The notes under the pieces are model-generated. The model saw only the letters and a program-made list of their open reading frames with translations, did not search any database and was not told the origin of the DNA. Shown piece by piece: positions 9,025-21,636 of a stretch of 21,636 nt of DNA. The stretch's first letter is position 1. Each line of letters begins with the position of its first letter. The DNA comes from a virus. The DNA is taken from positions 1 to 21,636 of the IMG/VR virus record IMGVR_UViG_3300009155_000311; one strand, given 5' to 3'. The position numbers and the translations under genes are program-made.

Positions 9025-10284
9025 ATGTCGTTGAGCAATTCAAAATATTTTCCAATAAACACAGCTACTAGTTGCAGATCAAAATGGGCATCAAGTACCT
9101 TGCGATTAAACGATGGCACCACTGCATCCTGTACTAAAGCTAGTAAGTCTGTGATTGATTCTAACTTCAACGATTTCCACAACACAGAGAAAAAAATAAT
9201 GGCCCGTCGTCTGATGTTAGAAGGAAAATGGCCTGGTGACGGGTGCGAGTCATGCGAAAAAATTGAAAATAGTGGAGGCTTCAGCGATCGCCAGTTTCAA
9301 AATCAAGTACCGGGTGTATATCCAATGGCATTGGAAACAGACTCAACCACAGTTAACGTTTTGCCAACAGTGCTAGAATTGTTTTTTACAAATAAATGCA
9401 ATTTTAAATGTCTTTATTGTAACCCTCAATTTAGTTCTTCTATTCAAGAAGAAAATGCTAAGTTCGGCGGATCAATAATTGGAGATAATAATTTTAAATA
9501 CGTTGACAATCGATATCAAGATTTAGTACCTAAATTTTGGAAATGGTTTCACGAGAATAGTCAAAAATTACAAAGATTGCAATTGTTTGGAGGCGAGCCG
9601 TTTTTACAAGAAGATGTTTTAAAAATAATTGACTATCTACAACAAACTCCGCACCCCGGGCTTGAATTAAATATTCTTACAAATTTATCAATACCAACAG
9701 ACCAATTAAACACCATACTGACATCGTTAAGTACTAGCAAAAATAATAATTCGTTGAAACGTGTAGATATTCAGGCTAGTCTAGAATCGTGGGGACCAGA
9801 GCAAGAATATGTTAGATTTGGCTTTGATGGTAAGTTATTTGAAACTAACATGCAATCAATGATTTCAATGAACTCATTTAGAATAGGATTTTTATCTACA
9901 GTTAATTCATTGTCGATAAACAGTATGCCAGAGCTATGCAACAAGTATTTGGAATGGAACAAACTACAACCTATATTTTGGTATATGCATCTTGTTCTTC
10001 CTGACGACAGCGTATTTAATCCGGTAATTTTTGATTACTCAGTGTTCGAGAAATCAATAAATCGTATGACTGAGATGCTACCAAAAGAAACTGGCGATGA
10101 TCAAACAACCTATAAAACCTTTATGGGAATTGCAAGTATGCTGGAAAAAAATTGCAGTACTGATATAGAAAAACAACATAGACTAGTTAATTTTTTAATA
10201 GAAAACGATCGAAGAAAAAATACCAATTGGAAAATAACCTTCCCGTGGCTTGTCAAGGTGCTAGAAAAAAATAATGTTATATAG
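9025..10284 (+). CDS. Radical SAM enzyme with N-terminal cysteine (twitch-like) cluster, copy 1
   Basis: Radical SAM enzymes use a [4Fe-4S] cluster and S-adenosylmethionine to start radical chemistry. In this 419-residue protein the cluster motif is CNFKCLYC (Cys125, Cys129, Cys132), followed by the SAM-contacting GGEP (189-192) and ILTNLS. Before the core lie Cys17, Cys36, Cys74 and Cys77 in segments like LRLNDGTTASC and RRLMLEGKWPGDGCESC. They could hold an auxiliary iron-sulfur cluster, as in twitch or SPASM domains, though those usually follow the core. The second copy has the same plan. Similar proteins occur in aquatic phages with unknown substrates. Its ATG directly follows the stop of the small acidic gene. 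It is AT-rich and lies in a recombination operon, so it is probably acquired cargo. Confidence 0.85.
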   Translation: MSLSNSKYFPINTATSCRSKWASSTLRLNDGTTASCTKASKSVIDSNFNDFHNTEKKIMARRLMLEGKWPGDGCESCEKIENSGGFSDRQFQNQVPGVYPMALETDSTTVNVLPTVLELFFTNKCNFKCLYCNPQFSSSIQEENAKFGGSIIGDNNFKYVDNRYQDLVPKFWKWFHENSQKLQRLQLFGGEPFLQEDVLKIIDYLQQTPHPGLELNILTNLSIPTDQLNTILTSLSTSKNNNSLKRVDIQASLESWGPEQEYVRFGFDGKLFETNMQSMISMNSFRIGFLSTVNSLSINSMPELCNKYLEWNKLQPIFWYMHLVLPDDSVFNPVIFDYSVFEKSINRMTEMLPKETGDDQTTYKTFMGIASMLEKNCSTDIEKQHRLVNFLIENDRRKNTNWKITFPWLVKVLEKNNVI

Positions 10285-10290
10285 TATAAT
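10285..10290 (+). promoter_or_regulatory. Possible -10 box between the radical SAM genes
   Basis: TATAAT follows the TAG stop of the first radical SAM gene directly, 24 bases before the next ATG. No good -35 element is seen at 16-18 bases. The nine bases TAGTATAAT are identical to those at 1393-1401. The second gene has its own ribosome site, AAGGA at 10301-10305. Confidence 0.25.
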
Positions 10291-10314
10291 GCTTGTTAGA
10301 AAGGATACTGTTTA

Positions 10315-11472
10315 ATGGCTGATGATTTTTATTGCTCGCAAAAATTTTGGTGGTTAACAGTAGACCTGGAAAAACAAGAAACACAAAGTTGTTGTGCTGC
10401 TGTACCTGCACGAGTTGATATGAAATGGTTAGATGTTAATTCTGGGCAATTGTTTAATACACCGGCAGCAATAACCGAACGCAAATTGATGTTAGAAGGA
10501 AAACCTGTTGCCAGTTGCGAAACACAATGCTGGCAACCTGAGTCCCAGGGACTGACCAGCCGTCGATTGCAGATGAACTCTCAAGAACGCACACACGGAT
10601 CTGTTGTTGCTGATCCATCAGTGTTGAATGTTGTAGTTGGCACAGATTGTAACCTTACATGTGTTTACTGTTGCAAACAATATAGTTCGGCCTGGTCACA
10701 TGATATTTACAACAACGGAGATTACAGTCTTCCGGGCAATCGATTCAATCTTAGTGCGCGAGATCGAGTTATCATGAAAATAAGTCAAAAGGATTTTGGA
10801 AAATCGGTCAACTACAACCAACTGTTAAACGAAGTTGTTGAGCTAGTCAAAAAATCTACTCTTACCACAGTTATTATCACCGGCGGTGAACCTTTTTTGT
10901 ATTTGGAATTGGCACCACTTGCTCAACGTCTAAATGACCACGGAGTACTCATAAAAATTTTTAGCAGCTTAGGTGTTAACGAAAAACGATTTGAGAAAGA
11001 AATTGAAAAACTACAAGGACTCAACGTTGAGATTGTAATCAGTAATGAAAATGTTGAAGATGCATATGAGTTTGTTCGTTACGGAAATACCTGGCAAAGA
11101 CTCAATAAAAATATATCTACTATAGAAAAGTACAATATTAATTACAGCTTTTATTCAGTAGTTAGTAATTTGACAGTTATGGGTATTCACAAGTTCGTTG
11201 AGTGGGCAGGCAATAAGTCAATAATGTTTGCTCCTTGCAGCGATCCAGATTTCCTGTCAACATCAGTGCTAGATCCTGTAACTAAAAAAATTATATTAGA
11301 CCAACTAGATCTATACCCCAGCCAGTTAAAACAGATCATCAAAAACGATCTGACAGTAGATCCAACAGAATTACAATACCAACAACTAAAAATATATTTG
11401 AAAGAATTTGCACAAAGACGTAATCTTAGTTTTTCAGTCTTTCCAGAAAGTTTTCAAAAATGGATAGCTTAA
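10315..11472 (+). CDS. Radical SAM enzyme with N-terminal cysteine (twitch-like) cluster, copy 2
   Basis: A 385-residue paralogue of the preceding enzyme with the same architecture. The radical SAM motif is CNLTCVYC (Cys112, Cys116, Cys119), with ITGGEPF (188-194) following. N-terminal cysteines are Cys7, Cys26-Cys27, Cys68 and Cys72, with the shared segment ERKLMLEGKPVASCETQC. Copy 1 has RRLMLEGKWPGDGCESC in the same place, so this N-terminal unit is a real conserved domain. Sequence identity between the copies is otherwise low, so they probably act on different positions or substrates or as a pair. It starts at ATG 10315 after an AAGGA site. The stop TAA overlaps an ATG that begins only a 7-codon frame, with the uvsY-like gene starting four bases on. 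No peptide substrate gene is obvious nearby. Confidence 0.85.
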   Translation: MADDFYCSQKFWWLTVDLEKQETQSCCAAVPARVDMKWLDVNSGQLFNTPAAITERKLMLEGKPVASCETQCWQPESQGLTSRRLQMNSQERTHGSVVADPSVLNVVVGTDCNLTCVYCCKQYSSAWSHDIYNNGDYSLPGNRFNLSARDRVIMKISQKDFGKSVNYNQLLNEVVELVKKSTLTTVIITGGEPFLYLELAPLAQRLNDHGVLIKIFSSLGVNEKRFEKEIEKLQGLNVEIVISNENVEDAYEFVRYGNTWQRLNKNISTIEKYNINYSFYSVVSNLTVMGIHKFVEWAGNKSIMFAPCSDPDFLSTSVLDPVTKKIILDQLDLYPSQLKQIIKNDLTVDPTELQYQQLKIYLKEFAQRRNLSFSVFPESFQKWIA

Positions 11473-11955: not shown

Positions 11956-12816
11956 TTAAAATCCATCATGATCAAATTTTGGTTTATCGGCAAACAGTCT
12001 TGCAATAGGTTTTCCTGTGGCCAATTCTTCACAGGTCCATTCTGTGTGAGCAAGACTGATAAGCCATGCATTCCGATCTGGTCTTGCAGGAGATTCTATT
12101 TGGCTCCAATCCAAATTTGCTACCGAAGCAGCCAGACTTGATGCACCAACAAAGGCAGGCACACCAGACATGACAGCTGTAGTACCAGGACCGCTGTTCC
12201 AATTCACCACTGCCCAGGCATTACTTAATGCTCGATCAAAATCAAAATCATCATAGGTGTTGGGTATATGTAAAGGCCTATCAATAATACAATCTGGCAA
12301 GACCACCACTTCCCGGCGGGGATGACTGCGTATCACGATGGCTCGTTGAGTCACTTGTCTCAGTTGATTGACAGTTTGTTTTAACCACTGTTCTGTTGTT
12401 GGCATGCCAATCCATTGCTCGCTGTCGTTGCGTTGCAATGCAATTACAATGTCATTACCAAAAGTTTGCCATGGCTTCAATTGCAAATTTAATTTTTGTG
12501 GTCTGTGTAAGTCAAGTCCGTGTCCATAAAATGCAGTTGAACCTGTTCCGTTGATGCCCACTTTCCAAGTCTTACCCCTCTGCAGCATGCCTACTTCCAA
12601 CACAACAACAGGCTTGCCTGCTGCCCTAAACGCTTGCCAAACTGCTTGATTTTGTCGCATGCGCCCAGACCAAACCATACTCCATATCACAGCAACATCC
12701 GCTGTCATGTCGTGACTGTTGTGTCTAAGACCCAGTTGATCAAGACCATGTTGAACAGCAGCAAATACCGGCTGACTGTTTAAGGCACCAAACTTGTCGA
12801 ATAGTCCAAATCGCAT
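11956..12816 (-). CDS. Capsule-polysaccharide-synthesis-like protein (GT-B type), copy A
   Basis: A 286-residue protein on the minus strand. The second half carries the signature of capsule polysaccharide biosynthesis/KpsS-like and glycerophosphotransferase-like GT-B enzymes: AIVIRSHPRRE (159-169, the R-x-HP motif) and VVNWNSGPGTTAVMSGVPAFV (203-223, a nucleotide-binding helix with Ser/Gly before it). The tail is HTEWTCEELATG. The 301-residue protein at 14936 and the C-terminal half of the fusion at 13300 have the same order (RPHP; NSSSGVAAILHGVPLW; CHWTDEESRQG), so there are three relatives within 4 kb. The likely role is sugar or polyol-phosphate transfer in glycan building. It is a single gene, convergent with uvsY and divergent from the cupin gene. 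The ATG at 12816 has a poor ribosome site. Confidence 0.75.
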   Translation of the reverse strand: MRFGLFDKFGALNSQPVFAAVQHGLDQLGLRHNSHDMTADVAVIWSMVWSGRMRQNQAVWQAFRAAGKPVVVLEVGMLQRGKTWKVGINGTGSTAFYGHGLDLHRPQKLNLQLKPWQTFGNDIVIALQRNDSEQWIGMPTTEQWLKQTVNQLRQVTQRAIVIRSHPRREVVVLPDCIIDRPLHIPNTYDDFDFDRALSNAWAVVNWNSGPGTTAVMSGVPAFVGASSLAASVANLDWSQIESPARPDRNAWLISLAHTEWTCEELATGKPIARLFADKPKFDHDGF

Positions 12817-12955: not shown

Positions 12956-13303
12956 ATGAAAGCTGGAAAAATTTGGGGACAAACAGAATTATTGGAAGCA
13001 AATGGTGTTTTAGAGTTTCACAGAATTCAAGCTGTGGCTGGTGGTACATGTAGCAAACACAAACATCTGTTCAAATGGAACGGATTTTATGTGGAATCGG
13101 GCCGGTTACTAATTCGCGTGTGGAAAAAAGGTTATGATCTGGTGGATGAGACTGTGCTGACTGCCGGCGAATACACCAAAGTAGCACCAGGTGAATATCA
13201 TCAATTTGAAGCAGTGGAAGATACAGTTGCATTTGAATTGTATTGGGCTGAGTTTGATCATGATGACATTGAAAGAGAAACTGTGGGCAAAATAAAACAA
13301 TGA
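12956..13303 (+). CDS. Small cupin-domain protein
   Basis: A 115-residue single-domain cupin. Cupin motif 1 is visible as GGTCSKHKH-x(n)-FYVESGR (metal ligands His35, His37, Glu47). Motif 2 is GEYTKVAPGEYHQFEA (His82, with the typical P-G turn). All four usual metal ligands are present, so it probably binds a metal. Single-domain cupins of this size include sugar-phosphate isomerases and epimerases as well as sensors. The resemblance to the cupin half of mannose-6-phosphate isomerase and the glycosyltransferase neighbours make a sugar-related role likely, but the substrate is not evident. It has its own ribosome site and overlaps the next gene by ATGA (13300-13303), suggesting coupled translation. 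It is the first gene of a plus-strand set of four. Confidence 0.85.
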   Translation: MKAGKIWGQTELLEANGVLEFHRIQAVAGGTCSKHKHLFKWNGFYVESGRLLIRVWKKGYDLVDETVLTAGEYTKVAPGEYHQFEAVEDTVAFELYWAEFDHDDIERETVGKIKQ

Positions 13304-14949
13304 CATATAAGATTTTTATTGGATGGGATCCTCGAGAAGCCGAAGCAGCAGAAGTGTGCAAACACAGCATACTGAAACATGCATCTGCTCCGGTAGAAAT
13401 TTCTTTTTTAAAACAAAGTGAACTGCGGGCCCAGCAGGTATACACCAGAGAGATAGATGCAGATAGTAGCACAGAATTTACATTTACTAGATTTTTAGTG
13501 CCATACCTGTGCCAATATCAAGGGCATGCATTGTTTGTTGATTGCGATTTTTTGTTTGAACATGATGTGGTAGAGTTATTTCAACAGTATCAAAATCTCA
13601 AGCACAGTGTTAGTGTGGTGCAGCATGATAACTATGCTCCCAAGTCGAGCATCAAGATGGATGGAAAAGTACAACATCAGTATCCCAAGAAAAACTGGTC
13701 CAGTCTCATGTTGTTTGATTGCGCCCATCCAGAATCACAATCCCTAACTGCTCATGTGGTCAATACGCAAACTGCACAATTTTTACATAGATTTGATTGG
13801 AGCACCACTGTTGGTTCAATTGATAAATCCTGGAATTGGCTGGTAAACTGGTATCACGAACCTGAGGACGGCAAACCCAAGGCCATACACTATACCGAGG
13901 GCGGACCTTGGTTTCCGGATCATGTCAAAACTGAATACGGAGCACAGTGGACACATGCTCTTAGAGAATATAAAGGCCAGGATAATCCACCTCCACCTCC
14001 ACCTCCACCTCATGTGTTTGATCAAGTGCCTGCTGAAATTGCTGCATTGTTCAAGGATATATTGAAATATCGTGTCGATCCTTCGGGGGAAATTTACAAG
14101 GTCACATTGAACAACTTGATAGATCAATTAAAAACGCTGAACAACCGGGCAGTTGTTGCCATAGGCTCAAACACAGCAGACAATAAATTTGAAAGGAAAG
14201 GACTTATGTTTGATCCATATTTACAGAGTTTCACCCTGGGTTCAGGCGGACAAATATCGCAATGGGAAAAGCACAGAAAAAGCACAACCCCGGCTGTGTT
14301 TAGAGGAGTTACCAAACGCAAAGAAATGGAAATTTGTTACCAAGAACAAAGAGATTTTTATTACATTGACACTGGTTATTTTGGAAACGGACGCAAAAAA
14401 ATTTACCACAGAATCACAAAAAATGCCTTGCAAAATCTTGGACCCATAATTGATAGACCAGGTGATAGATTTGAAACAACCGGAGTACAACTCAGGAAGT
14501 TCAGACCAGGCACTAACATACTGTTGGCACCTCCCAGCCAAAAATTGTTGAACATTTTCAACATTGATCTTGAAGAATGGATTGCAACAACACAAGAACA
14601 AATTAAACAACACACAGATCGTCCAATAGTGATAAGAACCAAACAAGGCCGAGCTGCCAGAGTCAACGACAACACTATGGAAATGGCCTTGAGCCAAGAT
14701 GTACATTGTTTGGTTACGTTTAGCAGTATTGCAGCCGGTGAAGCCTTGCTGTTGGGCAAACCTGCCATTACTCTGGGACCAAACGCAGCCGCAGCACTGT
14801 GTAGTAACAGTGTGAGTGAAATAGAATCTTTAATGATACCAACGTTGGATCAAGTACATGCGTGGGCCAGACACATTGCCTATTGTCAATTTACCGAAGC
14901 AGAAATGCGAGATGGTACAGCCTGGCGAATATTGAATGAAAACTCCTGA
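13300..14949 (+). CDS. Bifunctional fusion: GT-A glycosyltransferase + polyproline hinge + capsule-synthesis-like GT-B domain
   Basis: This 549-residue protein is made of two recognisable parts. Residues 1-225 form a GT-A type glycosyltransferase: KIFIGWDPREAEAAEVCKHSI (4-24), and HALFVDCDFLF with the metal-binding DCD (81-83). IHYTEGGPWFPD (197-208) is a late motif common in such enzymes. Eight prolines in a row (230-237) form a hinge. Residues 240-549 resemble the capsule-like proteins encoded on either side, including DRPIVIRTKQG (440-450) and VTFSSIAAGEALLLGKPAI (472-490). However, the expected HP pair is replaced by TK, and NS by FS, so this half may be inactive or altered in specificity. 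It overlaps the cupin gene by 4 bases and the following gene by 14. A fusion suggests that two sugars are added in succession by one protein. Confidence 0.85.
   Translation: MTYKIFIGWDPREAEAAEVCKHSILKHASAPVEISFLKQSELRAQQVYTREIDADSSTEFTFTRFLVPYLCQYQGHALFVDCDFLFEHDVVELFQQYQNLKHSVSVVQHDNYAPKSSIKMDGKVQHQYPKKNWSSLMLFDCAHPESQSLTAHVVNTQTAQFLHRFDWSTTVGSIDKSWNWLVNWYHEPEDGKPKAIHYTEGGPWFPDHVKTEYGAQWTHALREYKGQDNPPPPPPPPHVFDQVPAEIAALFKDILKYRVDPSGEIYKVTLNNLIDQLKTLNNRAVVAIGSNTADNKFERKGLMFDPYLQSFTLGSGGQISQWEKHRKSTTPAVFRGVTKRKEMEICYQEQRDFYYIDTGYFGNGRKKIYHRITKNALQNLGPIIDRPGDRFETTGVQLRKFRPGTNILLAPPSQKLLNIFNIDLEEWIATTQEQIKQHTDRPIVIRTKQGRAARVNDNTMEMALSQDVHCLVTFSSIAAGEALLLGKPAITLGPNAAAALCSNSVSEIESLMIPTLDQVHAWARHIAYCQFTEAEMRDGTAWRILNENS
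13988..14011 (+). repeat. CCACCT tandem repeat encoding the polyproline hinge
   Basis: Four copies of the hexamer CCACCT in a row encode eight prolines at the domain boundary of the fusion glycosyltransferase. Hexamer gain or loss would keep the frame, so hinge length could vary between relatives. Confidence 0.85.
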
Positions 14950-15841
14950 TGTTGTTGTTTATCTTAGTTCGTTGCAAAAACAAAATCCAGGTAGAAAAGT
15001 TGATACCTTGACAGCGTTTGCTGATGGTGCACGATCTCAGGGTGCCACAGTACACATAGAAACACAAAATACATATACTCCTTCAAAGTTGGCCGTAATG
15101 TTAGGGTGGGCCAGCCCTCAACAACACACGCCTAATATAAAATTACGAGCACATATAATACAACAGCAACAGCAGTTGAGTAATCACACCATGTGTATTG
15201 ATGCAAATTGTTTTAAATTTGCAGATCATGACAGTCGGTATCTGCGTTACAGTATAGGTAGTCCTTTCTACGACACTGGCAACTATGCCAATAAAAATTC
15301 AGATTCTGCCAGATGGAAGCAATTGTCAAAAGATCTTGGAGTCAGTGTACATGATTGGCGATCAACTGGAAATTACATACTGTTGCTGATGCAACGAGAC
15401 GGCGGGTTTACTATGAAGGGCCTGCATCCACTGACCTGGACTGAACAAAAAATAAAACTCATACAGCAACACACTGACATGCCTATTGTGTTACGTCCGC
15501 ATCCGGGAAAAATAGCCGACCCAACTTGTTTGATACAACCTGGGGTCACAATGAGTGATCCGATCCAGCGATCGTTATTAAAAGATTTGAAACATGCCGC
15601 CGGCGCCTTTGTGTTTAACAGCAGCAGTGGTGTTGCCGCAATACTACACGGAGTTCCGTTGTGGGTAGATGATTCCAGTAGTGTGTGTTGGCAAGTGGCT
15701 GATACTGATGCTGGCACAATTCACAATCCTGCAATGCCGGATCGAACACAATGGTTGAATGATTTAAGTGCATGCCACTGGACTGACGAAGAAAGTCGCC
15801 AGGGCTTGATCTACAAAAAATTCTTACCTTATCTTGTTTAA
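14936..15841 (+). CDS. Capsule-polysaccharide-synthesis-like protein (GT-B type), copy B
   Basis: A 301-residue protein with the same signatures as the minus-strand copy A: TDMPIVLRPHPGK (180-192), FVFNSSSGVAAILHGVPLWVDD (225-246) and a C-terminal SACHWTDEESRQG. The N-terminal half (VVVYLSSLQKQNPGRKVDTLTAFADGA) resembles the first Rossmann-like half of a GT-B fold. The key His-Pro and Asn-Ser-Ser motifs are intact, so unlike the fusion's second half it is probably active. The likely role is sugar or sugar-phosphate transfer in glycan assembly; the donor is unknown. It starts 14 bases inside the preceding gene in another frame, and the next gene's ATG comes one base after its stop, so the set is translated together. 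Confidence 0.8.
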   Translation: MKTPDVVVYLSSLQKQNPGRKVDTLTAFADGARSQGATVHIETQNTYTPSKLAVMLGWASPQQHTPNIKLRAHIIQQQQQLSNHTMCIDANCFKFADHDSRYLRYSIGSPFYDTGNYANKNSDSARWKQLSKDLGVSVHDWRSTGNYILLLMQRDGGFTMKGLHPLTWTEQKIKLIQQHTDMPIVLRPHPGKIADPTCLIQPGVTMSDPIQRSLLKDLKHAAGAFVFNSSSGVAAILHGVPLWVDDSSSVCWQVADTDAGTIHNPAMPDRTQWLNDLSACHWTDEESRQGLIYKKFLPYLV

Positions 15842-15842
15842 T

Positions 15843-16526
15843 ATGTCACAAAAAGTTATTGCTTGCTTTGGTTGTAGTTTTACAGGGGGTGTGTTTGATT
15901 CTTGTGAACCAAGACAGTCTTGGCCATATCAATTGTCATTGGCAAGACCAGATTTGAAAGTTTATAATTTTGGAAGACAAGCAACCAGCGTATTATTTTC
16001 GTTAAACATGATTGATCAAGTGTCTGAACAATTAAAATCAGATTTAGTTATAACACAACTTACCGAACCAACAAGAATGACGTTTTATGATTCAGGATTT
16101 AAATTGAATCTTAAACAAGACTTATTAAAAATTTCAGATAATTATTGGGTATTGCCGATGAGCGTCAAAGGCATTTGGCCGTTCAATGGTGTCAGCGGAA
16201 AAAGACAAATCAGAGAAAACTTCTCTAACTCTTCCACGGCAGAAAAATATCAAGTACTAAAAAATCTCATGGTCATGCATGAAGATCAAAATCATTTTGA
16301 TCCAGAATATAGAGCATTTTTTCACAGAGCTAACTCGTTATCGGATCTAGTATTTTTTCACAGAAAATTATATAGAGAAGTTCCGGGTTTAGAAAATACA
16401 CCGTGTGTGGAAAAATTATTAGGTACTGAAAAATTTTTAGATCTAGTCATAGACAAAGGATTCCACTTTGGCACTGATGGAGCCAAATGGATTTCAAACT
16501 GGGTTACTGAAGAATTGAAATTATAA
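15843..16526 (+). CDS. SGNH/GDSL-hydrolase-like protein
   Basis: A 227-residue protein read from ATG 15843, chosen over TTG 15834, which overlaps the upstream stop. The N-terminus KVIACFGCSFTGG (4-16) carries the block I motif, with Ser12 as candidate nucleophile in a GCS rather than GDS context. VYNFGRQATS fits block II. The C-terminus DKGFHFGTDGAKWISNWV (204-221) fits block V, with His208 and Asp204 or Asp212. The block III Asn is not clear. Such enzymes add or remove acetyl or other acyl groups on glycans; in a glycosylation cluster this could modify the phage or host glycan. Activity is uncertain because two positions deviate. It converges with the minus-strand operon, only two bases apart. 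Confidence 0.7.
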   Translation: MSQKVIACFGCSFTGGVFDSCEPRQSWPYQLSLARPDLKVYNFGRQATSVLFSLNMIDQVSEQLKSDLVITQLTEPTRMTFYDSGFKLNLKQDLLKISDNYWVLPMSVKGIWPFNGVSGKRQIRENFSNSSTAEKYQVLKNLMVMHEDQNHFDPEYRAFFHRANSLSDLVFFHRKLYREVPGLENTPCVEKLLGTEKFLDLVIDKGFHFGTDGAKWISNWVTEELKL

Positions 16527-16528
16527 AC

Positions 16529-17311
16529 TTAACGTAGTTTGCTAATAGCAGTATCTAATGCATCACTGATGTGTTGTATCGGAAATACTGAAAATAATTT
16601 ATCAACATTCATTACACAATTAGATCTTGGAGCAACAGTTGCAGCTTTAAATTCATCCCTAGTAAACCATTCTTTCTCTAGTCCGAGCTTATCAGCAACC
16701 TGTTTAGTAGTAGCAGAACCCGGATTACAAACATTATAAATTCCGCCTGCTGGTTTATTCACTGCAAAATACACAGCTACCTTGGCTACATCAACAACAT
16801 AACTAAATGAGTTTTCGTAGTCAATTAATTTTTGATAATTTGATAATTTTGTAAAAATGTTCTTAGGTTCGTGTGTATCACCAAAGGGCATGCGGATTCT
16901 TAATAGGTATGATTTATCAAGATGAGGCGCCATTAAAGTTTGGAACAACGCCTTTGAACCGCTGTAAAACGATCCGTTATTAAAATCAAAATTAGGAGCG
17001 TCTTCTTCAGACCACCCGCCTGGTTTATAACCAGTGTATACACATCCGCTGGTAATATGTACAATAGGCGTAGAGAGATTTGCTGATTCTAACTGCAACG
17101 GAAATACTACATTGCCGTTGATAGTTTCTTGTTTGTGTTGTTCACAAGCATCAACATTCGGAGAACCGGTATAACCAGCAGCATTGATGATTGCTGTCGT
17201 GCCAGCCGGAACAGCCTGACCATGTCTAATCCACTCGTGATGAATATTTTGATATTCTAATTCTTGTTTGATCTGTCCGCCAACATATCCATGGCCTATT
17301 AGTGTAATCAT
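16529..17311 (-). CDS. NAD(P)-dependent sugar reductase/epimerase (RmlD-like extended SDR)
   Basis: A 260-residue extended short-chain dehydrogenase/reductase. The N-terminal nucleotide-binding motif is IGHGYVGGQI (5-14, G-x-G-x-x-G). IINAAGYTG (41-49) matches the NAAAYT region of dTDP-4-dehydrorhamnose reductase. TSGCVYTG (87-94) supplies the catalytic Ser/Thr region, and YSGSK (116-120) is the catalytic Tyr-x-x-x-Lys. PAGGIYNVCNPG near residue 190 is also typical. It probably reduces or epimerises a nucleotide-linked sugar, but the exact substrate cannot be read from sequence. It is the last gene of the leftward operon; its start overlaps the cytidylyltransferase stop by one base. Confidence 0.88.
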   Translation of the reverse strand: MITLIGHGYVGGQIKQELEYQNIHHEWIRHGQAVPAGTTAIINAAGYTGSPNVDACEQHKQETINGNVVFPLQLESANLSTPIVHITSGCVYTGYKPGGWSEEDAPNFDFNNGSFYSGSKALFQTLMAPHLDKSYLLRIRMPFGDTHEPKNIFTKLSNYQKLIDYENSFSYVVDVAKVAVYFAVNKPAGGIYNVCNPGSATTKQVADKLGLEKEWFTRDEFKAATVAPRSNCVMNVDKLFSVFPIQHISDALDTAISKLR

Positions 17312-17796
17312 TATGCGTCTCTTGATTTTATCAATTCGGGAGAATATTGTGGCAATGCTTCAGTGCTATCTTTATCTTTGGCACTTTCTAATTTAGCAGT
17401 TCTTGATCTCAACTCGCTGGAGGAATACTTGTGTCCACGTTTGTGATAGTGTAATTCGATCCCAACATCCATGCAATATTGCTTGCCGGTAAAATCTCTG
17501 TTGAGATATTCTTCACTTAAAAATCTTATATGAATGGTTTGTGTCTGTAACAACTGTAATAGGTCAAACTCTGTTTCATAGATTAAAATCTCATCAACAT
17601 ACTTACATGCCTGAAGCTGAACATATCGTTCGTATGCACTTTGTACTGGTTTGTTCTTAATTCCAGGACGATCGATGGTTGGATCAATCTGTAGTGCAAC
17701 TATGAGATAGTCGCACAATTCTTTTTCCATCTTTAACATAGTAACATGACCTGCATGTAGTAGATCAAAACTGCTGCAATTAAATCCCACTTTCAT
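17311..17796 (-). CDS. Cytidylyltransferase-like nucleotidyltransferase (TagD/HldE-C type)
   Basis: A 161-residue small nucleotidyltransferase. FDLLHAGHV (10-18) contains the HxGH nucleotide-binding motif, DRP is at 42-44, ERYVQLQACKYVDEI (56-70) is typical of the family, and YSSSELRSR (124-132) is the second signature (usually S-S/T-T-x-L-R). It would join CTP or ATP to a phosphorylated small molecule such as glycerol 3-phosphate or a heptose phosphate, and so activate a building block for transfer. A very strong ribosome site AAGGAGGA (complement of 17804-17811) lies inside the end of the methyltransferase gene, which it overlaps by 17 bases. It has about 20 extra charged residues at the C-terminus compared with the core domain. 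Confidence 0.85.
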   Translation of the reverse strand: MKVGFNCSSFDLLHAGHVTMLKMEKELCDYLIVALQIDPTIDRPGIKNKPVQSAYERYVQLQACKYVDEILIYETEFDLLQLLQTQTIHIRFLSEEYLNRDFTGKQYCMDVGIELHYHKRGHKYSSSELRSRTAKLESAKDKDSTEALPQYSPELIKSRDA

Positions 17797-18409
17797 CTGA
17801 GAGTCCTCCTTTTTCTATTGAATACCAATCATTGGCTGGATGTACTGTGTCTCTGAACCACCAATATAAATCTGGGCCTGCCCAATTAGAAAATTGTTCC
17901 TGATACCACTCTACACTTCTAGGATATGTTACCCAGTTAGCGTCGTACATTCGTTTTTTAGATTTTACAGGCTTATCTGGTTTGTGTAGGCCTATGAATA
18001 CAAACTTAGTAGCATAGTTCATTAACTTATCGCACAACCAGGGCATATCAACATCAGGAATACTGCCCAGTACCTGTGTACAAATAACAGCATCGAATGT
18101 CTGTCCTATGGGTTCTATTTCAAATTCTTTTACGCAGGGATCAAACTTGTAAACACTTTCTGCATTTATCCTAGTTTGAAATGTCGTCGGTTCTGTTACT
18201 TGATCGTGCGGCATTCCGTATGAAACTATATTTGTATATTGTCTACCCTTGCCACAGCCATAATCTAGCACAGTTTTGGCATTGTATTTGTCCATCAGGA
18301 CTCTAATCTGATTGTGATAATTCTTGCAATCGTCTCCACCCCAGCTGCTGTTGTTTAATTGAAATTGTTTTCCTAGTTCTACACTTTCTAAATAATAACT
18401 ACTTGGCAT
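17780..18409 (-). CDS. Class I SAM-dependent methyltransferase
   Basis: A 209-residue protein with the SAM-binding motif I VLDYGCGKG (47-55), an acidic residue near motif II/III (YKFDPC, Asp90) and motif IV/V FDAVICTQVLGSIPD (105-119). The Rossmann-like methyltransferase fold is therefore clear. The C-terminal part is rich in Trp and Tyr (SVEWYQEQFSNWAGPDLYWWFRDTVHP), suggesting a sugar- or lipid-type acceptor site. In this operon it most likely O-methylates a sugar or the activated precursor. It starts on the last base of the upstream gene's stop and overlaps the next by 17 bases. The target is unknown. Confidence 0.85.
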   Translation of the reverse strand: MPSSYYLESVELGKQFQLNNSSWGGDDCKNYHNQIRVLMDKYNAKTVLDYGCGKGRQYTNIVSYGMPHDQVTEPTTFQTRINAESVYKFDPCVKEFEIEPIGQTFDAVICTQVLGSIPDVDMPWLCDKLMNYATKFVFIGLHKPDKPVKSKKRMYDANWVTYPRSVEWYQEQFSNWAGPDLYWWFRDTVHPANDWYSIEKGGLSDESGI

Positions 18410-19080
18410 TATAATTTTCCTATGAATTTTCTATTGTTTGCCACCCATTGTTGAGCAGACTCTGATTTATAATATTCGCTGGTCCAGTCGCTGTATATTT
18501 GCCAATTATCCGGAGTATCATAGTCTTTTCTTAATAGATACATTTGACAACTTATATTAACTGCTCTAGCGTCAGGTGCTAGAATGTATTTAAACATTAC
18601 ATTTCCGCTCTTATGTTTAGGGCCATTGAGTCTCGTAACAATAGATTCCTCTGTGTCTAAACTAGATCTACGGGCAATGATAGCAAAGTCTGTGACTTTT
18701 TTATTAGTGGCATCGCTGCGTTCATGTAGTTTATCGTAGTGATTTGTAAAATCCACGCCCATGAATGCTACATCGTTGTTTCCGTTGACGATTTCGTCGA
18801 GCTCGCTTAATACCACAGACATCGAACTAGTCGTGAACCAGAGATCGGTTCTTAATTTAATAATGACATCTTCTTTGACAGACTTAACAGCCTGCAAAAA
18901 ATCCCAGACCTGTACACCGCCACTAGAGGTAAATGGACCGTCAGTACTTGGTCCTTGTCTAGTAAAATCATAGACATTCACAGCATACTGAGTTTTTAAC
19001 AACTCAATCAACGCCTGATGATTAGCTTTTGAAGTCTTATCAAATTTACGTTGACCGATGTATACTACGGCAATTGCCAT
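18409..19080 (-). CDS. Glycosyltransferase-like protein with RTDLWF motif, paralogue 1
   Basis: A 223-residue protein related to the next gene upstream in the operon. Shared motifs in order are an N-terminal VVYIGQRKFDKT-type strand, GGVQVWDF (54-61), IKLRTDLWFT (74-83), FMGVDF and DFAIIARRS. RTDLWF resembles the R-x-D type metal/donor motif of WavE-like lipopolysaccharide glycosyltransferases, which is my best guess for the family. It is the shorter of the two and lacks about 60 residues mainly between strands and at the C-terminus. It overlaps both neighbours (16 bases upstream, 1 downstream). Donor and acceptor are unknown. Confidence 0.65.
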   Translation of the reverse strand: MAIAVVYIGQRKFDKTSKANHQALIELLKTQYAVNVYDFTRQGPSTDGPFTSSGGVQVWDFLQAVKSVKEDVIIKLRTDLWFTTSSMSVVLSELDEIVNGNNDVAFMGVDFTNHYDKLHERSDATNKKVTDFAIIARRSSLDTEESIVTRLNGPKHKSGNVMFKYILAPDARAVNISCQMYLLRKDYDTPDNWQIYSDWTSEYYKSESAQQWVANNRKFIGKL

Positions 19081-19922
19081 TTTTTAAAATCCTCTATATT
19101 TAAATCCTGCTGGTCCCATCCTTGCTGACTTCTCCACCAATTAACTGCATCTTGCATGGGGTGAGGAATGATAAAAGTTTTCTTTCCAATTTCAGACTTA
19201 TCGTCCAATATATAGCTTTGTATATAGTCTTTGCAAACTTCATTATCACTAGGATATGAAGCATATGTTTTTCTAATTAACCATGTTTGGCATAGTATTC
19301 TAAAAGCATTGACATCTTGAAAATAAAAATGTTCAGTCTTTGTCATAGGGATCAGCAATTTAAAAAGATTGTTACCGCTCCGTCTTTTTTTAGCAGGAAG
19401 GCCAGTGATATAGTCTATAACTTCTTTAGCTGGCTTTAGCTGAGATCGATTGGCAACAATTGCGAAATCTTGCACACCACCAGGGACTCCGTCTATGACA
19501 ACGATTTTATGATAGATCTTCCCAGCATTTGCATGAATCCAATCACTGCCAAAAAAAGCTATATCTGTTTTTCCTGCAAGAATTTTTTTAATCTCTTCGC
19601 ATATAATAGAAATACTCGAGTCAGTGAACCAAACGTCTGTGCGTAATCTCATCACACAGGGTTCTGTGGTGCGTTCACAACTTCTATAAAAGTCCCAGAC
19701 CTGGATGCCGCCGCCCTGTCCTCTACGATATGCATTGTCAAGATTGGGGTCACCTTCTTCAAAAGGACAAACACCTCGGTCAGGGTCGTCTTTGGTAAAC
19801 CAATAGATATTAACACCAACAATTTCATTAAGGCAATCAAACAGTCGTTGATGATTTTGTTTGACAATTTCTAAGTTATGTCTTTTATCGCCAGTGTAGA
19901 ATACTGCCAGTTTTTCTTTCAT
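19065..19922 (-). CDS. Glycosyltransferase-like protein with RTDVWF motif, paralogue 2
   Basis: A 285-residue paralogue of the following gene. Shared motifs are LAVFYTGDKRHNLE, GGIQVWDF (71-78), MRLRTDVWFT (91-100), FFGSDW and DFAIVANRS. An acidic insertion around residues 45-70 (DDPDRG, EEGDPNLD) and a longer C-terminus distinguish it. Such pairs usually add different sugars in one chain. The assignment as a WavE-like glycosyltransferase is by motif similarity only. The start overlaps the nucleotidyltransferase-phosphatase stop by 4 bases (ATGA type), so translation is probably coupled. Confidence 0.65.
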   Translation of the reverse strand: MKEKLAVFYTGDKRHNLEIVKQNHQRLFDCLNEIVGVNIYWFTKDDPDRGVCPFEEGDPNLDNAYRRGQGGGIQVWDFYRSCERTTEPCVMRLRTDVWFTDSSISIICEEIKKILAGKTDIAFFGSDWIHANAGKIYHKIVVIDGVPGGVQDFAIVANRSQLKPAKEVIDYITGLPAKKRRSGNNLFKLLIPMTKTEHFYFQDVNAFRILCQTWLIRKTYASYPSDNEVCKDYIQSYILDDKSEIGKKTFIIPHPMQDAVNWWRSQQGWDQQDLNIEDFKKWQLP

Positions 19923-20941
19923 ATAAAATCACTTAAATTATCTTGATCTCTTTTTATATTTACAGCCACAGCACGTGGCCAGGGATTAGCATCGTTATAG
20001 TCGTTTATCAACACACGCTTGGTATTTGGCAAACCAGAAATTAGCTTGAAGTCAACAAATCCTAGATCTTTTAACATTTGCTCTGTTATTGCATGTGAGT
20101 CACTGCTTCGTGCGGTGGTGAAGATTACCTGACTACCATTGGCGATTAATTCTTTAATACGTTTTATATTCTTTTCAAGTGGTATCGGTGTAGTTCCTAT
20201 TTCTAATCTTGATTGTGCGTTGATTATTGTTCCGTCAATGTCACAGAACAACACAGCCTTGTCGTTATACTCAAACCATTCTTCTGCGGTGCCTACATCT
20301 ACATAATTTGTAACAGCACTTTCTTTGAATATTGCACCATCATTAAGGCATTCTTCGATGATATGACTAACGAAGATTTCTTTCACGTTTGCATCTTTTA
20401 ATTTTTCAAACGCAGACATAAACATATCCGCTGATTCAAATTTATAACCACCTACACAGAACTTGTCAGACACAACCTGTTTCTCGATGATACTGGTAAT
20501 AATTCCTTGATCGTTGGCCACAACAAAACTTTTACTTGCTAGTCGTTTTAGTATTTCGTGATCTCTGATGTTTGAAACACAGACATAATTACCTTCTTGA
20601 TAATCATGGTCAAAAAAACTATCGCAGTCTTTGATTAGAAATTCTTCTGTGGTCAATTCTGCCTGCTTTAATATTTGATATACTGTATCAGCAGGCCCTG
20701 TTGTTCTATTTTCTAAAATCACAACCTGTATAGCATCACCATATTCGTTTTTAATATATTCGGCGGTGCTATACTGGTCGTTGTGTTCTTTTAAGATACC
20801 TATAGTAATGTTATGCTTGCCTATAAATGATTCAAGCGATCGTTCAAACATATACTTGCCTTGAAAATCTGCAAGGATGTATTTTGGCCGCATATTAGGA
20901 AATCTTGTAGATAACCCAGCAGCTGGCATTATTATTTCCAT
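19919..20941 (-). CDS. Nucleotidyltransferase-HAD phosphatase fusion
   Basis: A 340-residue two-domain enzyme. Residues 1-225 form a sugar-nucleotide pyrophosphorylase type domain: PAAGLSTRFPNMRPK (6-20, the G-x-G/S-x-R signature with Lys20), TTGPADTV (80-87) and KDCDSFF with metal-binding Asp105/Asp107. Residues 228-340 form a HAD phosphatase: AVLFCDIDGTI (229-239; Asp234, Asp236), FTTAR (274-278, motif II), Lys309 region and LINDYNDANPWPRAVAVNIKRD (311-332). The last segment resembles the small capsule-biosynthesis HAD phosphatases of the BcbF/EcbF type. Together the domains could activate a sugar or polyol phosphate and remove another phosphate. It lies between the kinase and two glycosyltransferase-like genes with 4- and 10-base overlaps. 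Confidence 0.88.
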   Translation of the reverse strand: MEIIMPAAGLSTRFPNMRPKYILADFQGKYMFERSLESFIGKHNITIGILKEHNDQYSTAEYIKNEYGDAIQVVILENRTTGPADTVYQILKQAELTTEEFLIKDCDSFFDHDYQEGNYVCVSNIRDHEILKRLASKSFVVANDQGIITSIIEKQVVSDKFCVGGYKFESADMFMSAFEKLKDANVKEIFVSHIIEECLNDGAIFKESAVTNYVDVGTAEEWFEYNDKAVLFCDIDGTIINAQSRLEIGTTPIPLEKNIKRIKELIANGSQVIFTTARSSDSHAITEQMLKDLGFVDFKLISGLPNTKRVLINDYNDANPWPRAVAVNIKRDQDNLSDFI

Positions 20942-21636
20942 AACAAATTGATTCCTTGTAATAAAAAGTTTCTTTCGAGAGTATCTGGTCTGCTGTGCCT
21001 ATATACTCTTAACAACATTAAGATCAACAGATAGTCATTGTTGGCTTGTGGATATTGTTGTAATATTTGTTGTTGTATGTGTTTGGTTTTTACATCTAGC
21101 ATCACATTATCTTTTCTAGTAAACCAACCTAGTTCTAGATCTTGTCTTAATTTTGCAATATCAAACACGTATGAATCGTATTCTATTGTTACGCAATCAA
21201 TAAGAAAAAATCCGCGATCAGTGGTAAAAATAATATTTTCTAATGTTAGATCACCGTGATAATTTGAACTCGGCAACGTTTTAGGAAGACGTTCTAACAG
21301 TTGTTCACGAGTGAATGGCATCTCATCAAAACTAACTTCTTGTAATTTTTTAATATAAGTTTCTGTATAGTCTTTGTCTACAGCATTACTAGAAAGTTTT
21401 TCTAGGATAGACAAAATAAAGTCCAATAACTTTTCATAATTGTTGGTTTTGAGATATGACTTAATATCTAGCCCGTGCAGATATTCCATGTCAATCATTT
21501 TCTTTGACACTGTGTACAATTGGGGAAGAGGATAATCTGCAGACAGGGCCTGCATACGTTCAATGTTCCTAGATATGTTTCCTATCTTTCGTACAAAGAG
21601 TTTTTCGTGTTTCTGCATCAATAATATCTGATTTCC
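20932..21636 (-). CDS. Small-molecule kinase (aminoglycoside phosphotransferase/choline kinase fold), 5' end probably outside window
   Basis: It is likely to phosphorylate a sugar or amino alcohol using ATP. Numbered from the ATG at 21618, the motifs are FVRKIGNISRN with ATP-contacting Lys11, MEYLHGLD (44-51), the catalytic loop NYHGDLTLEN (119-128, His-Gly-Asp...Asn) and FLIDCVTIEYDS with the metal-binding Asp141. The frame has no stop between that ATG and the right edge; the six codons before it read GNQILL, and the family normally has more residues before the Lys. The true start is therefore probably beyond the window. Its position before the nucleotidyltransferase fits a kinase-then-activation route. 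It overlaps the next gene by 10 bases. Confidence 0.85.
   Translation of the reverse strand, partial: GNQILLMQKHEKLFVRKIGNISRNIERMQALSADYPLPQLYTVSKKMIDMEYLHGLDIKSYLKTNNYEKLLDFILSILEKLSSNAVDKDYTETYIKKLQEVSFDEMPFTREQLLERLPKTLPSSNYHGDLTLENIIFTTDRGFFLIDCVTIEYDSYVFDIAKLRQDLELGWFTRKDNVMLDVKTKHIQQQILQQYPQANNDYLLILMLLRVYRHSRPDTLERNFLLQGINLLWK

Follow-up and report, generated by a model that had tools for sequence, protein, structure and literature searches.

A putative glycan-building cassette in a T4-like jumbo phage, with a conserved donor-making core and an exchangeable tail

In the virus record IMGVR_UViG_3300009155_000311, of which all 21,636 bases analysed here are called the window, positions 16529-21636 are filled without gaps by seven leftward open reading frames encoding sugar-type enzymes, and the question is what a phage builds with such an operon and onto which acceptor. 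The operon sits in a phage genome, as a T4-type large terminase ~ 52% identical to those of the Pseudomonas jumbo phages PA5oct and MIJ3, UvsX, UvsY and a gp32-like single-strand-binding protein share the window with it, while no tRNA gene was found there; the source is a T4-like jumbo myovirus, a giant freshwater phage. A preliminary description of this DNA had listed seven genes overlapping by 1-17 bases, and the overlaps are indeed, from the kinase leftwards, 10, 4, 16, 1, 17 and 1; its enzyme assignments stand, through Pfam with PHROGs and NCBIfam in agreement and, for the glycosyltransferases, through a fold model. Our best explanation, to which we give about an even chance, is that the phage carries a cassette for building a glycan, in which the genes that make the donor stay fixed and those that transfer it are exchangeable; the acceptor is most likely host lipopolysaccharide.

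The core consists of two genes. The first, truncated by the window end (20932..21636, minus strand), encodes a predicted small-molecule kinase of the APH/choline-kinase fold (Pfam APH, 3.2e-7) with HGD-T-EN and LID motifs, and all 36 distinct relatives keep [HVI]GD-[LF]T-EN and a LID-type motif. The second (19919..20941, minus strand) encodes a sugar-phosphate nucleotidyltransferase (residues ~ 1-228) fused to a HAD phosphatase (residues ~ 230-340), with Pfam matches to NTP_transferase (7.8e-5) and HAD (1.4e-4) and with a full set of HAD motifs. The fusion protein carries PAAGLSTRFP-MRPKY, KDCDSFF, DxDGT, TTAR and LINDYN, and the HAD motifs DxDGT and LINDYN are kept in 36 of 36 distinct relatives. 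In profile searches the nucleotidyltransferase domain best matched the Vibrio cholerae nucleoside-diphosphate-sugar pyrophosphorylase 4EVW (8.8e-50), followed by the heptose-pathway enzyme 6jq8, GlmU and IspD; PHROGs and NCBIfam place it near heptose-, GlmU- and IspD-type enzymes, and HddC-type models match it weakly (1.3e-4 and 9.5e-5). A structural model of the fusion protein (predicted TM-score, pTM, 0.65, the HAD part being weak) returned on Foldseek the same 4EVW (1.5e-11), which unlike the fusion protein is without a HAD domain, then inositol-1-phosphate CTP transferase and RmlA. Judged by these similarities, the core enzyme is a predicted HddC/RmlA/IPCT-like nucleotidyltransferase, and the suggestion already made of a kinase/phosphatase/nucleotidyltransferase route fits the conserved core.

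The pairing of these two genes is constant. The kinase lies directly before the fusion gene in all 59 loci with surviving upstream sequence, the remaining four loci starting at a contig edge. Furthermore, the two genes adjoin in the marine phage AG-345-E15, at 26-32% identity and within a sugar cluster, and their order is kept in a sister phage group though the cassette there is quite different. Used as scan queries, the fusion protein found 40 loci and the glycosyltransferase GTa (below) 39, and besides the window 53 viral contigs carry the fusion gene, all with the operon arrangement in synteny, so that this arrangement is not due to chance. In addition to its separate kinase and nucleotidyltransferase-HAD pair, AG-345-E15 encodes a nucleotidyltransferase-plus-kinase-like fusion (L076:11475-13025), and bacteria have comparable ones (L118, L119).

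The operon extends beyond the window. Contig L002, 99.94% identical to the window over 11,187 bases, continues rightwards, and following it, as had been proposed as a check, uncovered six further genes, hence a full operon of 13 genes and 9.5 kb. In order, the six encode a GT-A-like protein, a c0-family protein (see below), an FkbM methyltransferase, a GT-B type protein (by eye) and two type-11 methyltransferases, after which come the seven genes of the window; the complete kinase is 252 amino acids long (L002:4702-5460). Since a divergent gene precedes the operon start in L007 and L022, both the left and the right operon ends are known.

Downstream of the core lie two glycosyltransferase genes, GTa (19065..19922, minus strand) and GTb (18409..19080, minus strand), neither of which matches a Pfam family above cut-off. 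As had been thought, the two proteins are related, being paralogues by BLASTP (32% identity, 1e-37). The AlphaFold model of GTa (pTM 0.87) gave 49 Foldseek matches in the PDB at E <= 0.001, nearly all of them GT-A glycosyltransferases, the best being the PBCV-1 major capsid protein glycosyltransferase 2p73 (1.9e-5); with TM-scores of no more than 0.26-0.39 by query length, these matches back the fold class but not the specificity. GTa is hence, on its model, a predicted GT-A enzyme. Its RTD[LV]W motif is invariant in 34 of 34 sequences, and among viral proteins it matches annotated glycosyltransferases or proteins without a name. No other tail gene is copied as often or varies as much as GTb, which shows one to three copies and 27-100% identity across loci. 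A profile search, run with no positive control, found no bacterial GTa homologue in 398 genomes, and no close phage relative of GTa, the reductase or the methyltransferase was present in 50,697 phage records.

The last three genes, all on the minus strand, are optional. They encode an S-adenosylmethionine-dependent methyltransferase (17780..18409; phrog_24759, 4.4e-8; its Methyltransf_23 score of 2.7e-5 falls under the model cut-off), an HxGH-family cytidylyltransferase-like nucleotidyltransferase (17311..17796; CTP_transf_like 2e-12, phrog_7878 5.6e-31) and an RmlD/epimerase-type NAD(P)-dependent short-chain dehydrogenase/reductase (16529..17311; RmlD_sub_bind 4.5e-8, GxGYVG and YxxxK). HxGH is present in 31 of 31 sequences labelled cytidylyltransferase and YxxxK in 10 of 10 reductases, and the reductase occurs only alongside the cytidylyltransferase. 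The PDB relatives of the latter are ethanolamine-phosphate and glycerol-3-phosphate cytidylyltransferases, and it is 72% identical to a protein of cyanophage RN05-S that belongs to a dehydratase/epimerase/FkbM/glycosyltransferase cluster. We considered whether cytidylyltransferase and reductase could complete an RmlA-D-like route as its second half; this was not adopted, as the cyanophage dehydratase and 3,5-epimerase genes are absent from the operon and the reductases share only 28% identity over 96 amino acids.

Across the loci the upstream block is fairly constant and the tail variable. The tails hold one to three copies of GTa/GTb type, fused copies or an NAD-synthase-like gene, with methyltransferase, cytidylyltransferase and reductase present or absent, and variant loci have a 2-oxoglutarate-Fe oxygenase or a TylF methyltransferase upstream. 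Clean losses with breakpoints at gene borders are seen in L010 (without the reductase only), L007 (without the methyltransferase) and L049 (without cytidylyltransferase and reductase). Moreover, L020, L022 and L025 match the window at 73% identity in the fusion protein and 53-56% in GTa, but at 90-95% in methyltransferase, cytidylyltransferase and reductase; an SGNH-like open reading frame next to the operon, which accompanies the tail module in some phages, is 90-91% identical in L022 and L025 against 73% for the core gene. Given such divergence and such clean losses, the tail has therefore been exchanged among phages by recombination. The preliminary description had spoken of a complete activation-and-transfer pathway. 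A phage operon for donor activation, glycan transfer and methylation it probably is, but not a complete unit, because tail genes come and go singly, which makes the seven genes one arrangement among many; six of the operon's genes are beyond the window, and a sugar 4,6-dehydratase to supply the reductase was not seen. Two other genes were observed in the tail region: one for a TerC-family membrane protein beside the tail, replacing cytidylyltransferase and reductase (L049:12222-12911, L050 and L051), and the NAD-synthase-like gene, which lies within the tail and adjoins the methyltransferase (L014:13324-14076, L017 and L018).

How might such a cassette work? From gene set, synteny, folds, catalytic motifs, the asymmetry of core and tail and the residence in phages, we infer a substrate, donor nucleotide, acceptor and purpose as follows. 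The HAD domain would take the phosphate off a host-derived sugar-phosphate, or tidy an intermediate; the APH-type kinase would phosphorylate the hydroxyl at the anomeric or terminal position, giving a product that the nucleotidyltransferase half of the fusion would turn into a nucleoside-diphosphate-activated donor. GT-A enzymes, namely GTa and copies of GTb, may then attach the residues together with glycosyltransferase-like proteins encoded upstream, FkbM, type-11, type-23 and TylF methyltransferases may cap the glycan, and in some phages only, cytidylyltransferase and reductase could supply or alter a second donor. The acceptor would most likely be the host lipopolysaccharide core or another host-exported intermediate, whose alteration during infection would block competing phages. 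A narrower proposal, which we make tentatively and hold to be rather unlikely, is that kinase and nucleotidyltransferase-HAD protein form a phage-specific two-gene module for one unusual activated sugar, and that transfer genes swapped in a serotype-like manner place a private methylated glycan on host or virion from the same donor. Where phage sugar clusters usually stay "LPS genes", comparing about fifty related contigs tells a donor module that does not vary from transfer genes that are exchanged; this yields two proteins for donor assays and natural tail variants with which superinfection exclusion or virion recognition could be probed.

The logic of the core, that is to dephosphorylate, rephosphorylate at an activating position and couple a nucleotide, appears by analogy to follow that of MupP/AmgK/MurU and of GmhB/HddA/HddC. 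In the former, a salvage route for N-acetylmuramic acid, HAD phosphatase, sugar kinase and nucleotidyltransferase act in series to give a nucleoside-diphosphate sugar (PMC5371407). HAD phosphatase, APH-fold kinase and NTP_transferase occur together in the phage operon as well, but here the phosphatase is fused to the nucleotidyltransferase, and the genes are phage-borne and without a peptidoglycan-recycling context. The GDP-heptose route (HddA, GmhB, HddC) resembles the core in its kinase, HAD phosphatase and nucleotidyltransferase. HddA, however, is a GHMP-family kinase, whereas the phage kinase was matched by APH but by none of the GHMP models, and no heptose isomerase was seen in the cassette.

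As a kind of cluster the operon is not without precedent. Capsular polysaccharide clusters of jumbo phages contain PfkB kinases, HIGH-superfamily nucleotidyltransferases, epimerases, HAD phosphatases, O-methyltransferases and at least eight glycosyltransferase families (PMC7824862, section 3.4.10); they are polymorphic among related viruses, with a proposed role in pre-empting other phages (PMC7824862), and an example of this jumbo-phage/cyanophage capsular-polysaccharide ("LPS") type is the 15-gene cluster of P-SSM2 (PMC7824862; PMC9602691). The present operon has in common with them a sugar kinase, an HIGH-superfamily nucleotidyltransferase, an NAD epimerase/reductase, several glycosyltransferases and methyltransferases, HAD phosphatases and a polymorphic content. 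It differs by its APH-type rather than PfkB kinase, its invariant nucleotidyltransferase-HAD fusion, its private GT-A families without Pfam match and its other T4-like lineage. Contiguous donor enzymes and several glycosyltransferases in a phage genome, with a content that varies among related phages, mark it by sequence as a probable phage surface-glycan cluster, the effect on the surface being presumed. Hence the statement that no described phage system has this exact set holds for the gene set itself but not for the kind of cluster, which is known from jumbo phages and cyanophages (PMC7824862); what is new here is the APH-kinase/nucleotidyltransferase-HAD core with its cassette-swapped tail.

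The acceptor was approached through genes for export and DNA modification. No membrane protein was predicted in the operon families; the initiating transferase PF02397 and the flippase PF13440 were found in none of nine related contigs (fragments, 43-172 kb; controls positive), and neither was the thymidylate-synthase-family hydroxymethylase PF00303. These empty searches make capsule export and DNA modification less likely: by gene content, the operon does not look like a Wzx/Wzy capsule or O-antigen locus, nor like a system for DNA glucosylation of T4 type. Because no gene for lipid-carrier initiation or export was found, the acceptor should be accessible from the cytoplasm. Some jumbo-phage contigs related to the window encode a Gram-negative porin (L036:19246-20457; also L034, L035, L037 and L039) with 66% identity to porins of Methylotenera and Methylophilus; an S-adenosylhomocysteine hydrolase gene lies near the porin gene, and L036 adds TauD, desaturase-like and radical-SAM/B12 genes. 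The porin-carrying contigs suggest Methylophilaceae hosts and a remodelling of the host envelope. Host lipopolysaccharide is favoured, on indirect grounds, because in the sister group this two-gene core is accompanied by the outer-membrane porin and the desaturase-like gene; we rank lipopolysaccharide as the most likely acceptor and the phage's own virion proteins second.

Several points weigh against a glycan cassette acting on host lipopolysaccharide. The kinase is remote from all solved kinases, as a single-sequence query against solved structures gave no relative and the best profile match, to aminoglycoside kinases, reached 0.0067, and choline-type or polyol substrates are possible. The nearest solved relative of the nucleotidyltransferase, 4EVW, is itself uncharacterised. 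The related contigs are fragments, so that missing export or hydroxymethylase genes are no proof, and the position of the operon near uvsX, uvsY and gp32 is silent as to host-surface versus virion modification. Finally, fusion gene and GTa served as bait, and their co-occurrence is partly by design, which does not apply to the adjacency of the kinase.

The strongest competitor, although on balance somewhat unlikely, is that capsid, tail or fibre proteins of the phage itself are glycosylated in the cytoplasm and that changes in the operon tail alter the virion surface. It would suit the missing export genes, the hypervariable tail and the PBCV-1 capsid enzyme as closest solved fold of GTa, but this match is generic, a GT-A fold only, the operon is tied to no virion gene and the porin and fatty-acid desaturase-like gene joined to the core in the sister group indicate the host envelope. 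More doubtful is a core that makes CDP-choline, CDP-ethanolamine or CDP-polyol as in the LicA/LicC phosphocholine pathway, by which the glycan would gain a phospho-substituent. The APH/choline-kinase fold, a match of the AG-345-E15 homologue to Choline_kinase at 3e-5, the likeness of the nucleotidyltransferase fold to inositol-1-phosphate CTP transferase and the ethanolamine- and glycerol-phosphate relatives of the second nucleotidyltransferase speak for it; yet no LicD-type transferase matched among the cassette proteins scanned, the profile similarity extends to heptose, GlmU and RmlA enzymes, and choline needs no fused HAD phosphatase.

T4-like phages glycosylate their DNA using UDP-sugar donors and phage glycosyltransferases, and such an acceptor would be cytoplasmic. 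Nevertheless, a sugar built or attached on phage DNA as a hypermodified base, one of the targets first envisaged, is now disfavoured and highly improbable, given the lack of a hydroxymethylase-type gene in the nine contigs, the numerous methyltransferases and variable glycosyltransferase copies, which fit a surface glycan, and the polysaccharide-type neighbourhoods of the bacterial relatives. Indeed, two bacterial relatives of the nucleotidyltransferase were inspected and a nucleotidyltransferase-kinase fusion adjoins in both, with RmlA next door in one, as in surface-polysaccharide loci. An assembly chimera of a phage contig and a bacterial capsule locus, raised beforehand as what could overturn the phage operon and suggested by enzyme classes typical of capsule loci, has next to no chance and is ruled out by junctions identical in 53 independent contigs, by a relative of the window's terminase in 11 of 16 longer carrier contigs and by searches for the fusion gene that gave no match in 150 Methylophilaceae genomes, only three distant nucleotidyltransferase-only profile matches in 398 Pseudomonadota genomes and no confirmed bacterial homologue in a pattern scan.

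Beyond the operon, the convergent open reading frame (15834..16526, plus strand) stops two bases short of the operon's last gene and may encode an SGNH-type hydrolase/esterase, with a GCSFTGG motif by eye and no match in Pfam, PHROGs or NCBIfam. Next to it lie members of c0, a large paralogous family of 150 sequences, of which a phage may carry as many as four; by eye they are GT-B/capsule-synthesis-like, without Pfam matches: one alone (14936..15841, plus strand), one as a domain fused to a GT8-like N-terminal glycosyltransferase (13300..14949, plus strand; Glyco_transf_8 3.2e-4, below the model cut-off) and a further paralogue (11956..12816, minus strand); another member is at L002:1069-1968. 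A scan for promoters and terminators gave site numbers no higher than in shuffled sequences. Two tandem radical-SAM genes (9025-11472 of the window) separate uvsX and uvsY.

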